Shown in pieces: positions 18,939 through 23,727 of a DNA stretch of 64,000 nt (position 1 is the first letter of the stretch; each line of letters starts with the position of its first letter). The notes beneath the pieces are model-generated. The model saw only the letters and a list, made by a program, of their open reading frames with translations, ran no database searches and was not told the origin of the DNA. Source of the stretch: Halomonas sp. (lineage in GTDB: Bacteria > Pseudomonadota > Gammaproteobacteria > Pseudomonadales > Halomonadaceae); the NCBI RefSeq assembly GCF_011050415.1, contig NZ_DRFS01000006.1, forward strand, positions 62,001 through 126,000, read 5' to 3'. The position numbers and the translations under genes were made by a program.

Positions 18939-21677
18939 CTAACTTAGCTTTCCACAGCACTGCTTATATTTCTTGCCCGAGCCACAAAAGCAGGGATCGT
19001 TGCGACCAACTTTTGGCCCTTCGCGGCGTACCGGACGGCCATCAACAGCAGGCGCCTCTTGCGAAGCCGCTGGGGCTGACTGCTCATTGTTTGGGTCGTC
19101 ATGCCGGGTGGCCGCAGAAGCCGTTTCCCGCTCCAGCGCTTCGCGGCGCTGGCGTTCAAGGGCATCGACTTCTTCGGGCTGGCGCACCTGAACGTGGCTA
19201 AGAATCCGCGTAACATCTGCCTTAATATTCGTTAGCAGATGCTGGAAGAGCTCAAACGATTCACGCTTATACTCTTGCTTAGGATTCTTCTGGGCATAGC
19301 CGCGCAGATGAATACCGCGACGCAGGTGATCCATTGACTGAAGATGCTCTTTCCAACGAGTATCGAGCACTTGCAGCATTACCTGCTTCTCAAAGCGACG
19401 AATTAGCTTTTCACCCGCCGCCGCAATCTTGGCTGCGTAGGCTTCGCGGTGCATGGTTTGCAGCCGTTCACGCAACTGTTCCTCGCTGAAGCGCTCATCC
19501 TCAGCTGCCCACTTAACAACGGGAGCATCAAGATTAAATTCTGTTTTCAAGTGTGCTTCCAGGCCAGGCAAATCCCACTGCTCTGGCAGGCTCTGCGGGG
19601 GCACATAATCACTGATTGCCGCTTCCATCACCTCTTCACGAATACCAATCACGGCGTCCGCGACATCGTCTGCGGCAAGAATTTCATTACGCTGGTCATA
19701 GATCACGCGGCGTTGATCGTTGGCGACATCATCGTACTCAAGCAGCTGCTTGCGAACGTCAAAGTTACGCCCTTCCACTTTCTTCTGGGCACGCTCAACG
19801 GCATTGGAAACCATTTTATGTTCGATAGCTTCACCGCGTTCAAGGCCTAGCGCCTGCATTAAGCGCTTGACGCGATCAGAGCCGAATAGGCGCATCAGGC
19901 TGTCTTCTAGAGACAAGAAGAAGCGCGTCGACCCAGGGTCACCCTGACGCCCTGCACGGCCACGCAGCTGATTATCAATACGCCGTGATTCGTGACGCTC
20001 AGAACCTACTACGTGCAAACCACCTGCAGCCAGTACACCGTCATGGCGCGCCTGCCATTCGGCCTTAAGCGCATCAATTTGCTCTTGACTTGGGTTCTGC
20101 AGCTTGGCAGCTTCGGCCTCCCAGTTCCCCCCCAGCATAATATCGGTACCACGACCAGCCATATTGGTGGCAATGGTAATCGCCCCTGGGCGGCCCGCCT
20201 GGGCAATAATCTCGGCTTCACTCTGGTGCTGCTTGGCGTTAAGCACGCTAAATTGAAGCCCAGCCTCACGCATCAAGTTGGCGAGATACTCGGATGTTTC
20301 GATAGAAGCGGTACCCACTAATACAGGTCGACCGGCTTCCGTCTCCGCTTTTACATCCTTGATAATCGCTTCATATTTCTCTTCAGCGCTCAGATAGACC
20401 AAATCGTTAAGGTCTTTACGAGCTAGTGGTCGGTTGGTAGGAATAACCACTACGTCGAGGCCGTAGATTTGGCGAAACTCAAAGGCTTCGGTATCCGCTG
20501 TACCGGTCATCCCCGCCAGCTTTTCATACAGACGGAAGTAATTCTGGAAGGTGGTCGAGGCTAGCGTTTGGCTTTCTCGCTGCACCGTGACGCCCTCTTT
20601 GGCCTCGACGGCTTGATGTAAGCCTTCCGACCAGCGGCGCCCCGGCATAGAGCGTCCAGTATGTTCGTCAACAATCACCACCTGGCCTTCGGAGACGATA
20701 TAGTCGACATCACGGTTATAGAGATAACGGGCACGTAAGGCCGAGTGCATATGTTGAAGCAGGTTAAGATTTTGCGCTGCATAGAGGGAGTCATCCGCAC
20801 CTAACAAGCCCTCAGCGCGCATCAATTCTTCAACTTTGTTATGGCCCTGCTCTGTCAGTTCGACCTGCTTCTGCTTTTCATCAACCAAGAAGTCACCAAC
20901 GACAGTGGCTTCTTCATCTTCAATTTCTTCACCCTTTTCAAGCTGCTGGGCTAATCCATCAACGATTTTATAAAGGTCGGTATTTTCATCGACTGCCCCG
21001 GAAATAATCAGCGGGGTCCGTGCCTCATCAATGAGAATCGAGTCGACTTCATCGACAATCGCAAAATGGAGTCCACGCTGTACTTTGTCTTCTAACGAAA
21101 ACGCCATATTGTCACGCAGATAATCGAAGCCAAACTCATTATTGGTGCCGTAGGTAATATCGCACTGGTAAGCGTGACGCTTCTCTTCACCGGTTTGACC
21201 CGAGAAGATGACACCGATGGATAGCCCTAAAAACTCATATAGCGGACGCATCCACTCAGCATCTCGGCGCGCCAAGTAATCGTTCACTGTGACAACATGC
21301 ACGCCCTTACTAGTCAACGCATTAAGGTAAACAGCAAGCGTGGCAACGAGGGTTTTACCCTCACCAGTTTTCATTTCTGCAATACGACCACGGTGCAGGG
21401 TCATGCCCCCCACCATCTGTACATCAAAATGACGCATGTTCATCACGCGCTTACTGGCTTCACGTACGATGGCAAACGCAGGCGCCAAAAGGCTATCCAG
21501 TGACTCACCGGCTTCTAAGCGCTGGCGCAGCTCAGCCGTTTTCCCCTGTAGTTCAGCATCATTCAACGCCTCAAATTCGGCTTCTAGCGAATTGATTTGC
21601 GGCACATTTTTGTGCATGCGCTTTACTTCGCGGTCATTTTTGGAACCAACGACTTTACGTAATAAATTATTAAGCAT
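18939..21677 (-). CDS. secA: Preprotein translocase ATPase SecA
   Basis: Motor of the Sec pathway: binds preproteins and drives them through SecYEG with ATP. The 912-residue protein has the DEAD motor core with Walker A MKTGEGKT near residue 105, the preprotein cross-linking domain, a second motor domain with the AGRGTDI motif, and the C-terminal zinc finger [14 protein letters not shown] that binds SecB and phospholipid. Its ATG lies 63 nt after the stop of a small exported ORF, and GGA of its ribosome binding site falls in a predicted hairpin loop (21676-21696). Both features suggest secretion-responsive translation. Confidence 0.97.
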
Positions 21678-21696
21678 GAAATATCCAAGTATTCAC
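21676..21696 (-). promoter_or_regulatory. Hairpin masking the secA ribosome binding site
   Basis: On the mRNA strand GUGAAUA (21696-21690) can pair with UAUUUCAU (21683-21676) through one bulged U and one G-U pair. This leaves CUUGGA with the GGA Shine-Dalgarno core in the loop and draws the first two bases of the AUG into the stem. The stem is AU-rich and weak. In E. coli a stem-loop that hides the secA ribosome binding site is opened by SecM stalling; the same job is inferred here. Confidence 0.4.
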
Positions 21697-21740
21697 GAGC
21701 GACCCATCGGGACACGCCCTGTTTCGAGAAAGTGAGAGTA

Positions 21741-22103
21741 TTATCGACTAACTCGAGGGGAAGGTGGACCGCGTTGGGTCAAAACATCGTGAGCCGCGAC
21801 CAGCATAGCCATTGGGGGCAGCCAATTAAATAAGTGCCGAACAGGAGCAAAGCGCTTAGGATGCTGGAACCAGCGGCGCAAAGCGCGGCGTTTTTTGGCA
21901 ATCCAGTGAGATTGAGCACGTAAAATAGCAGGCACCCAAAAACAGATCGTAACGCTGCGCTCACCGCTACGAAAAGCGTCGGCGTGGCCTAAGCTAGCAG
22001 GTAAGAGGCAGCTCACTAGCAGGCCAGCCAGCCACCAACGCGCTATACCATAACGGCGTTGACGCCGTGGTATAGCAGACTGAGTTTCATGCGTTGGTGA
22101 CAT
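21741..22103 (-). CDS. Small exported protein ahead of secA, candidate SecM-like arrest peptide
   Basis: A 120-residue ORF on the secA strand that I do not recognise by sequence. The N-terminus is basic (RRQRR at 13-17), followed by a hydrophobic core (about 25-39) and an Ala-Asp-Ala cleavage site (41-43); Cys32 within LVSC could instead be a lipobox. The rest is basic and Trp-rich. The C-terminus contains Arg111-Gly-Pro-Pro114 followed by only six residues. E. coli SecM, also a Sec-targeted peptide encoded just upstream of secA, ends in an arrest motif with RAGP followed by four residues. Position, signal peptide, size and motif together suggest an export-sensing stalling peptide. The rest of the SecM motif (FxxxxWI) is not conserved. 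AGGAG is 12 nt before the ATG, which is rather far. Confidence 0.6.
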   Translation of the reverse strand: MSPTHETQSAIPRRQRRYGIARWWLAGLLVSCLLPASLGHADAFRSGERSVTICFWVPAILRAQSHWIAKKRRALRRWFQHPKRFAPVRHLFNWLPPMAMLVAAHDVLTQRGPPSPRVSR

Positions 22104-22177
22104 GCTGTAGACCGGCTCCTGAGCGTGGTAAAATCGGCTAATTGGTCATCGGCCAGGATTGCCGACATCGTCATTAG

Positions 22178-22203
22178 CGGTACCCTAAGATATCGGTACC
22201 CTA
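22178..22203. repeat. Direct repeat with GGTACC cores upstream of the DciA gene
   Basis: CGGTACCCTA occurs at 22178-22187 and again at 22194-22203, 16 bp apart, each containing the palindrome GGTACC. It lies in the 112-bp divergent region between the secA-upstream ORF and the DciA-family gene, just before the latter's ATG at 22216. It could be a protein binding site or part of the leader; nothing in the sequence decides this. Confidence 0.5.
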
Positions 22204-22215
22204 GGAATTAAGCGT

Positions 22216-22677
22216 ATGAGTATAAAGGTTAAGCGTTCTCACGCACAGCCCATTGCCCGCTTGCTCTCAAAGTCCGGCGATATTAGTCAGTTAATGCGCC
22301 TGTCTCGCTTGATCGATCAAGCGCAGCGGCATTTGCGTGCGCACCTCCCTGAAGAAATGCGTGAGCATATTTTCGTTGGAGGATTTCGCGAAGGTCGCTT
22401 AACGCTCATTAGCGGCCAAGCCAGTTGGTTAACCTGGCTGCGTTTTGAACAGCGTCGCTTATTAGAGCTGCTTCACCAGCTACCTGGGTTTGAAGGTGTT
22501 AATGGCTTCACTTTCAAGGTACGTCCTGTGCGCCCGATTGTCGCCCCAGCGCGAAATACTCGCAGCCTGTCAGCTGATGCGGGCAAAACATTAGCTGAGT
22601 GCGCAGAGGACACTACCAATCCTGCTCTTAAACGGGCGCTTGAACGGCTTGCCTCTCATGCACGACCGCTAAAATAG
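22216..22677 (+). CDS. dciA: DciA/DUF721-family protein, probable helicase operator
   Basis: A 153-residue protein with the DUF721 core: helical N-terminal part, then LISGQASWLTWLRFEQRRLLELL and FKVRPVRP, typical of DciA. DciA proteins load the replicative helicase DnaB in bacteria lacking DnaC/DnaI. The family gene lies next to lpxC and secA in Pseudomonas as I recall, so position supports the call. It is transcribed alone, divergent from secA and convergent with lpxC. The C-terminal part (about 105-153) looks poorly conserved or flexible. Confidence 0.8.
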   Translation: MSIKVKRSHAQPIARLLSKSGDISQLMRLSRLIDQAQRHLRAHLPEEMREHIFVGGFREGRLTLISGQASWLTWLRFEQRRLLELLHQLPGFEGVNGFTFKVRPVRPIVAPARNTRSLSADAGKTLAECAEDTTNPALKRALERLASHARPLK

Positions 22678-22737
22678 CAAATCCCAAGAAGCTGATTTGT
22701 TTTAATATGCTTTCTTTCTAACAGCCTCAAAATGCAT

Positions 22738-22761
22738 AAAGCACCGCATCGGCGGTGCTTT
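22738..22761. terminator. Hairpin between dciA and lpxC
   Basis: AAAGCACCG and CGGTGCTTT form a 9-bp inverted repeat around a short loop, giving three T after the stem on either strand. The neighbouring genes converge, so it may serve both. The T-tracts are short. Confidence 0.5.
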
Positions 22762-22815
22762 ACGAGTTTAATCAGACTTAATAGCTTCCAAAAGTGCTTC
22801 TAGTGAGGTTTAAAC

Positions 22816-23727
22816 TCACGCCATTGCGGGTGCCGCATAAGAGATAGGCGCAACAGCTTTTTCATCTTCAAAGGTGACGATTTCATAGGCATCAGGCTGT
22901 GCCATAAGCTCACGACAGAGCTGATTATTCAATGCATGGCCTGATTTTACACCCCGGAATTCACCAATTAGGCTATAACCCAGCTGGTATAAATCTCCGA
23001 TGGCATCCAACACTTTATGTTTAACGAACTCATCTTCGTAGCGCAGACCGCCTTCGTTAACGATACGATAATCATCAACTACGATGGCATTATCCAAACT
23101 GCCGCCCAACGCCAAATTGTTTGAACGCAAAAACTCTAAGTCACGCATAAAGCCAAAGGTCCGCGCGCGCGATACTTCTTTAACAAATGACGTGGTTGAA
23201 AAATCAATCAACGCTGTCTGCTTCTGCTGCTCAAAAACAGGGTGGTCAAAATCAATCGCAAAGGAGACCTTAAAGCCCTGGTGAGGCAAGAAAACAGCCT
23301 CTTTATCACCATCAGTGACGGCAACGCGGTGTTTAATGCGAATAAATTTCTTCGCGGCATCCTGCTCTAAAATACCCGCTGACTGAATCAAGAATACAAA
23401 CGGGCTAGCGCTACCATCCATAATGGGCACTTCAGGCTCGCTAACATCTACGTAAGCATTATCAATCCCCAGCCCGGCAAATGCTGACATTAAATGCTCA
23501 ACCGTTGCCACTTTAACCCCGTTATAAGAAAGCGCCGTGCACAACTTGGTATCTTCTACCAATTCCGCGCGTGCAGGTACGTGAGCCACGGGTTCCAGAT
23601 CGGTTCTGACAAACACAATTCCTGTATTAGCTGGCGCCGGACGCAAAGCCAAATGAACTTTTTTACCAGAATGCAAACCCACTCCGGTAGCGCGAATGAC
23701 GTTTTGAAGGGTGCGTTGTCTGATCAT
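22816..23727 (-). CDS. lpxC: UDP-3-O-acyl-N-acetylglucosamine deacetylase LpxC
   Basis: Zinc metalloenzyme of the first committed step of lipid A synthesis, in the cytoplasm. At 303 residues it is of normal length. Zinc ligands are His78 (VEHLMSA), His237 and Asp241 ([10 protein letters not shown]); His264 (GHALNN) is the expected general-acid His. In E. coli LpxC is degraded by FtsH from its C-terminal tail; here the tail ends in a run of small hydrophobic residues (SYAAPAMA), compatible with similar control. It follows ftsZ, separated by a 134-bp gap with a perfect long inverted repeat. Confidence 0.97.

Follow-up and report, generated by a model that had tools for sequence, protein, structure and literature searches.

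The 120-codon open reading frame (ORF) that lies directly upstream of secA in a 64,000-nucleotide stretch of Halomonas DNA (hereafter the window) very probably encodes a RAPP/RGPP-type substrate that monitors Sec export. The gene, its pattern of conservation, its position and its geometry are established here. The motif and the class of peptide have already been published, and the function of the ORF is very likely; what is new relative to the accessible portions of the published accounts is a conserved block at residues 44–78, a spacer of 66–73 residues and an invariant Cys-Leu-x-Pro.

The secA Locus and Its Neighbors

The ORF starts at an ATG, encodes 120 amino acids and occupies positions 21741..22103 of the minus strand, and its stop is separated from the ATG of secA (21677) by 63 nt. 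The neighbors secA, lpxC, dciA and argJ were confirmed by Pfam. The elements of the locus, with the basis of each assignment, are the following.

21741..22103, minus strand: candidate arrest-peptide ORF, 120 codons plus stop (sequence, homologs)
22116..22120, minus strand: AGGAG, probable Shine-Dalgarno sequence of the ORF, 12 nt 5' of its ATG (sequence)
21684..21688, minus strand: TTGGA, weak Shine-Dalgarno sequence of secA (sequence)
18939..21677, minus strand: secA, the presumed regulated gene (Pfam)
22816..23727, minus strand: lpxC, a flank that matches the E. coli order lpxC-secM-secA (Pfam)
22216..22677, plus strand: dciA (DUF721), a divergent neighbor outside the sensor (Pfam)

The original prediction had described an ORF on the secA strand that stops 63 nt before secA, carries a signal-peptide-like N-terminus, ends in Arg111-Gly-Pro-Pro114 followed by six residues and lacks the FxxxxWI part of SecM. 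Position and motif are borne out by the sequence, the N-terminus by inspection, and the absence of FxxxxWI by the sequence together with the alignment columns. No NCBIfam model matched the window ORF, and its one Pfam match was at chance level (E 0.7); among 44 members of the family nothing came near the cut-off in Pfam or NCBIfam (best E 0.004 and 0.029, respectively). Rfam gave no match over 21500–22300, and promoter and terminator patterns found nothing over 21600–22900, where 1.4 and 1.5 hits are expected by chance. Being short, without a family match, on the secA strand and directly upstream of secA, the ORF has the properties of a uORF of this gene; RQH-type arrest peptides come from such uORFs of secA, secDF or yidC (accessible text of PMC10987492).

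Conservation of the RGPP Motif

The peptide can be divided into the parts listed here.

21975..22040, minus strand: putative signal-peptide core, residues 22–43 (RWWLAGLLVSCLLPASLGHADA) (dN/dS, alignment)
22008..22010, minus strand: Cys32, invariant, within LV[S/G]C, which resembles a lipobox (100/100 loci)
21870..21974, minus strand: conserved basic mid block, residues 44–78 (dN/dS 0.070, alignment)
21801..21869, minus strand: linker, residues 79–101, variable in sequence and narrow in length (dN/dS 0.242)
21762..21800, minus strand: predicted arrest region, residues 102–114 (VAAHDVLTQRGPP) (dN/dS 0.026)
21762..21773, minus strand: RGPP codons, residues 111–114 (sequence; putative stall site by analogy with the accessible text of PMC10987492)

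Among the 403 window ORFs of at least 40 amino acids, RGPP or RAPP occurs in this ORF alone; the others contain two RAPG and one RAGP, whose distances to the C-terminus are between 31 and 204 residues. An R[G/A]PP near the C-terminus was found in all 98 loci fetched by similarity (L001–L098), including L093–L095 and L098, in which the similarity match ended well before the motif. For the alignment, a script with a pattern that included R[AG]PP picked 98 loci, and L046 and L082, whose frames continue beyond the start of secA, were added by hand; the resulting set of 100 consists of exactly L001–L098 and the positional finds L113 and L115, so no similarity-fetched locus was dropped for a missing motif. 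The fetched loci had been chosen by score and genus span and are thus not a random sample. The 98-locus counts of codon variants, Arg109, spacer and charge refer to the set of 100 without L046 and L082.

In the alignment of 100 loci, R111, P113 and P114 are identical throughout and G112 is found in 97, the other three (L093–L095) having Ala at this position (RAPP). The residues in front of the motif are also well kept (A103 in 84 loci, A104 in 76, D106 in 93, V107 in 91 and L108 in 75), so that the wider motif in the alignment reads A-A-x-D-V-L-[T/S]-x-R-G-P-P. The four codons of the motif are spelled in 56 distinct 12-base forms in 98 loci, which indicates that selection acts on the peptide and not on the DNA. 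R[G/A]PP was likewise present in 79 of 80 named loci, which were kept from 161 relatives and are partly identical to the L001–L098 records, so that the two counts are not independent.

Among 17 close relatives (L005 was excluded because of its shorter tail), dN/dS was 0.236 for residues 2–20, 0.031 for residues 21–43, 0.070 for residues 44–78, 0.242 for residues 79–101, 0.026 for residues 102–114 and 0.639 for residues 115–119. Rigidity up to the motif and freedom right behind it are as expected of an arrest peptide. Conservation had been predicted to concentrate at the signal peptide and at RGPP, and it does so; the third conserved block, at residues 44–78, had not been anticipated. The ORF is a real gene under selection.

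Some loci deserve separate mention. L093–L095, which belong to one genus, have RAPP with no DVL residues preceding it, and their leader is longer, with 170–188 nt before secA and a hairpin near secA. In L174 (Halomonas olivaria TYRC17) the frame is lost after the beginning of the mid block and there is no RGPP, through either error or decay. The frame of L046 extends 44 residues past RGPP, so that its end and the start of secA have 4 nt in common, an arrangement that would permit translational coupling. An in-frame fusion of the ORF and secA with no stop between them, seen in L082/L221 (one genome), was rejected as probably a sequencing error: toward its 3' end this secA seems to shift frame as well, and L219, L220 and L222 of the same genus are without the fusion.

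Distribution of the ORF

Similarity search detected a homolog in 37 of 37 genomes of the genus, with the window genome counted in, and at an E-value of 0.01 in 183 of 201 genomes of the family. Two of the 18 misses (G087 and G101) carry an RGPP ORF at the same position, which raises the count to 185 of 201. Direct reading of the motif covered 88 of the 183 family genomes with a match (86 in L001–L098, plus L219 and L220), and the remaining 95 are counted by similarity only. The named near relatives that have the ORF are Halomonas and Vreelandella species. It is missing in 16 of the 201 family genomes, and since these keep secA, the ORF is dispensable. Outside the family, one genome per family was taken for 21 families of the same order (L117–L137) and 19 were judged, the secA start of L134 not being located and L135 having 94 nt upstream only; a homolog was found in none of these 19, a sampling that would overlook carriers scattered elsewhere. 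L132, from one of these other families, has a chance-like 44-residue ORF ending in RAPR.

A gene of 309–347 residues resembling M23 peptidases precedes secA in 15 of the 16 family genomes in which the ORF is absent (L099–L109, L111, L112, L114 and L116), and such a gene also lies directly before secA in 15 of the 19 judged genomes of other families; these genes were called by pattern match, with Pfam confirmation for L101 only. In L110, the remaining one of the 16, nothing similar is found before secA. Matches to the M23 gene in the window genome sit on other contigs and cover mainly the M23 domain, at 28–42% identity, so the ORF seems to sit where a gene has moved away or been lost.

Putative Signal Peptide, Conserved Mid Block and Linker

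By inspection, the N-terminus is composed of a basic region, a 16-residue hydrophobic core and Ala-x-Ala, and this organization is conserved in the alignment, where L29, C32, L33 and P35 are identical in 100 of 100 loci. Relative to Cys32, position −1 is Ser in 55 loci, Gly in 44 and Thr in one, and positions −3 and +2 are Leu in every locus. These residues bear on the possibility that the peptide has a lipoprotein signal peptide (LV[S/G]C with Cys32) and reports lipoprotein export or lipidation besides Sec, which we consider unlikely. The constant Cys32, the Ser or Gly at −1 in 99 of 100 loci and the constant Leu at −3 are in its favor, but the hydrophobic stretch persists past Cys32 (LLPASL), with Ala-x-Ala-like positions behind it in the style of signal peptidase I substrates, and the Leu found at +2 in 100 of 100 loci is unusual for lipoproteins. 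In addition, four papers retrieved for arrest peptides and lipoproteins contain nothing on this point in their titles or the opening lines of their abstracts.

The most conserved positions of the mid block are R49 (90 of 100 loci), P58 (95), R62 (94) and A63 (89), and the block lies 35–69 residues from the residue that would occupy the P site at the predicted arrest. Its distance from the motif is held within narrow limits: the P58–R111 spacing is 49–56 residues in 100 loci, the stretch from the signal-peptide end (set at Cys32+11) to the P-site residue is 66–73 residues with a median of 70 in 98 loci, above the 30 residues that a spacer of the RQH type has to exceed, and Cys32 and Arg111 are 75–82 residues apart in 36 members with less than 60% identity. 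The linker nevertheless shows 34 gap patterns in the set of 100. Common ancestry accounts for some of the narrow range; the two sub-spacings are weakly correlated (−0.23 to −0.27), and compensation is therefore not demonstrated. The mature part is strongly basic, with a net charge of +3 to +17 and a median of +11 (98 loci), which is unusual for an exported chain and counts against an export monitor. It is a guess that this charge should hinder export and could thereby sensitise the sensor.

One tentative view of the family is that of a three-module Sec sensor, made up of a signal peptide, a basic exterior block and a tunnel-facing RGPP, with a built-in ruler. The ruler itself is possible though doubtful: the linker, free in sequence and not in length, might fix the C-terminal edge of block 44–78 at the tunnel exit. 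If this were true, block 44–78 would touch the ribosome surface or SecA/SecYEG and so set the threshold for release, and the invariant Cys-Leu-x-Pro may add a lipoprotein-type processing step. The part of the SecM chain that has left the ribosome is reported to make its arrest more stable, according to the accessible text of PMC4373844. Published medians of the SecM spacer are 71 (short form) and 131.5, and wide variation of the spacer is described as typical of peptides encoded by uORFs of secA (accessible text of PMC10987492); a fixed spacer with an exterior block would be a design distinct from these widely varying spacers.

Relation to SecM and to Published Arrest Peptides

The ORF resembles E. 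coli SecM in its position (lpxC-x-secA), its apparent signal peptide and its C-terminal Arg-containing motif ending in Pro, and probably also in its role as a Sec monitor; the gap to secA is 61 nt for E. coli secM and 63 nt for the ORF. It differs in having RGPP and not RAGP, in lacking FxxxxWI and the full FxxxxWIxxxxGIRAGP, and in its length of 120 residues, compared with 170. The shared position, the similar spacing and the succession of an apparent signal peptide and a C-terminal Arg...Pro motif could all be read as signs of a true, diverged SecM ortholog and not of an independent analogue, yet we hold this to be quite unlikely, since hhalign of the 44-sequence alignment (A1) against a single SecM sequence, that of E. 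coli, gave a probability of 0.07% with the aligned stretch off the arrest site, SecM was missing among the Pfam matches of the 44 members, and FxxxxWI is absent from the ORF. PF06558 matched the E. coli control and was silent in the window genome and in all others from two sets of 143 and 369 genomes of the class, draws that seem free of SecM-bearing genomes. Profile comparison and family scans on this scale found no homology to SecM, though a very distant one may exist, and the ORF, having neither such homology nor the SecM motif, is placed with the RAPP/RGPP (RQH-type) monitors.

In 2024, Fujiwara et al. reported peptides of the RAPP-like type encoded ahead of secA, among them uA_RQH_Pseudomonadales (accessible text of PMC10987492). 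The original prediction had taken the motif to be new and the peptide to be undescribed in this group; RGPP peptides upstream of secA in Pseudomonadales were in print in 2024 (PMC10987492), so the first claim falls and the second fails for the class. As far as the accessible text of that paper goes, uA_RQH_Pseudomonadales shares with our ORF a small uORF of secA, a C-terminal RGPP and a spacer of more than 30 residues, and has the N-terminal localisation signal that our ORF seems by inspection to have. For want of overall similarity, that paper groups RQH members by taxonomic order (PMC10987492), whereas the ORF family is one homologous family with three conserved blocks. An Arg at 109 counted from an ATG, as in uA_RQH_Pseudomonadales, occurs in 4 of 98 homologs (L048, L076, L078 and L087) and in none of the 80 named loci. 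Since GTDB places the Halomonadaceae within Pseudomonadales, the published uA_RQH_Pseudomonadales may well be the ORF family itself. Searches of the open-licence literature for a Halomonas arrest peptide, for Halomonas SecM/secA and for the name of the group gave PMC10987492 only.

ApdA and ApdP (RAPP, upstream of secDF) have in common with the ORF a diproline core of the RAPP type and the expected stall at the third residue; the ORF differs in that secA and not secDF lies downstream and that Gly replaces Ala in 97 of 100 loci, and it is set apart from them by description. Small proteins of Streptomyces lividans also carry RGPP or RAPP near the C-terminus (PMC12992588). In the accessible text of that study, a localisation signal is predicted in six of the seven proteins of this set and all seven stalled; they come from another phylum and precede functionally diverse genes.

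Proposed Mechanism

From published relatives of the peptide we infer that it arrests translation, where it does so, that pulling relieves the arrest and that secA is induced. By this analogy, the ribosome would stop when the Pro113 codon occupies the P site and Pro114 the A site. The exit tunnel holds about 35 residues, so a stalled ribosome would hold residues 79–113, with the basic block 44–78 newly emerged just outside the ribosome and the signal peptide free for engagement by SecA/SecYEG. Active export would then release the stall by pulling, and slow export would lengthen it and so lead to more translation of secA 63 nt downstream.

The scheme draws on the accessible portions of published work. 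With its R109GPP, uA_RQH_Pseudomonadales gave an arrest fAP above 0.9 in PURE systems of both E. coli and B. subtilis, and all RQH members tested stalled at the third motif residue (PMC10987492). RGPP produced the strongest arrest in several contexts (PMC12992588). RAPP-like peptides are reported to stall when residue three of the motif is in the P site, and in ApdA and ApdP a hydrogen bond to the carbonyl of the motif Ala prevents attack by the A-site proline (PMC10987492; PMC12992588; PMC10951233; PMC7897499); the mechanism is solved for RAPP and proposed for most RAPP-like peptides, RGPP being unnamed in the accessible text of that work (PMC10951233). A secDF2 reporter rose about 5.6-fold when the RGPP peptide encoded ahead of it arrested, an induction that operates through a stem-loop over the secDF2 Shine-Dalgarno sequence (PMC10987492). 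Conservation, position and this published work on RGPP give good support to the proposal that the ORF would act on secA as a SecM-like export monitor by means of RGPP.

It is very unlikely that the ORF encodes an ordinary small exported or membrane protein, in which RGPP would belong to the mature function or be incidental and the adjacency to secA would reflect operon layout: the strongly conserved block 44–78 (dN/dS 0.070) could be a functional domain, but RGPP is reported to be avoided more than any other tetrapeptide in many bacterial phyla (accessible text of PMC12992588) and yet R[G/A]PP is kept close to the C-terminus in all 98 loci, the residues behind it are nearly unconstrained (dN/dS 0.639), and the 44 members have no Pfam or NCBIfam match near the cut-off.

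The secA Leader RNA

The step from arrest to secA translation is the least supported one of the proposed scheme. One further element was recognised in the leader of secA.

21697..21719, minus strand: hairpin just 5' of the secA Shine-Dalgarno sequence, at genus level (alignment, covariation)

The hairpin ends 8 nt before the secA Shine-Dalgarno sequence and does not cover it. In alignment A2, which lists 37 of 55 genus loci, pairing was intact in 90.2% of 256 cells over the 7 hairpin pairs counted. The covariation score, the number of cells paired and the pair types were above all 500 shuffles, although kinship alone can push related sequences above such shuffles without structure; pairs changed on both sides were unremarkable (47 of 500 shuffles), and the RNAalifold energy was only −0.12 kcal/mol. 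Comparison of the leaders of family loci showed that the hairpin is not family-wide.

Folding and openness of the leader were computed for the 88 of 98 loci with a gap to secA of 38–150 nt. Folding was mildly above that of shuffles, with a mean z of −0.84 and values below −1 in 36 of 88. Removal of the stretch that the ribosome would cover raised the mean computed openness of the Shine-Dalgarno sequence from 0.47 to 0.56 over the 88 loci (up by more than 0.1 in 30, down in 8; 0.66 to 0.83 in the window), a gain that cutting any 5' stretch may equally produce. When the real 5' stretch was compared with shuffled ones, openness was lower in 45 of 88 loci, the mean difference being −0.048. Repeating the comparison with a larger number of shuffles gave 40 of 88, with a mean of −0.038 and a median of +0.010, so that no shift holds in general; yet in this repeat openness dropped by more than 0.2 in 14 of 88 loci versus a rise of this size in 2. 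In 20 of the 88 loci the real value ranked near the bottom of the 20 shuffles made for that locus, where about 8 such loci are expected, and the window locus is among them, with an openness of 0.66 against 0.79 when shuffled and 1 of 20 shuffles as low. Evidence for masking of the secA Shine-Dalgarno sequence by the last part of the ORF is mixed.

In the minimum-energy fold of the window, the Gly-Pro codons pair with TGGAT at the secA Shine-Dalgarno sequence. This pairing was rejected as a general switch, as it was not common to 27 folds inspected by eye; it is a possibility for a subset of loci. A SecM-type lid may exist in some species, via pairings that differ among them, and it is not a demonstrated shared device. 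The weak secA Shine-Dalgarno sequence was also discarded as a sign of coupling, since it is no stronger in loci without the ORF (n = 37, a control that wrongly contains the ORF-bearing L046 and L082).

Conclusion

The part of this family that deserves the attention of specialists is its anatomy across the whole family, with an exterior block, a narrow spacer and Cys-Leu-x-Pro. Through it, the class of RGPP monitors of secA gains a large and alignable family in halophilic bacteria, some of which are used in biotechnology. The narrow spacer, the exterior block, Cys-Leu-x-Pro and DVLxxRGPP are constraints that can be mutated one by one. According to the accessible text of the published work, RQH groups cannot be aligned outside the motif, and the ORF family is therefore better for studying the parts of such a peptide that lie outside the tunnel. 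It also suits the question of what would switch secA when no general lid on the Shine-Dalgarno sequence is apparent.
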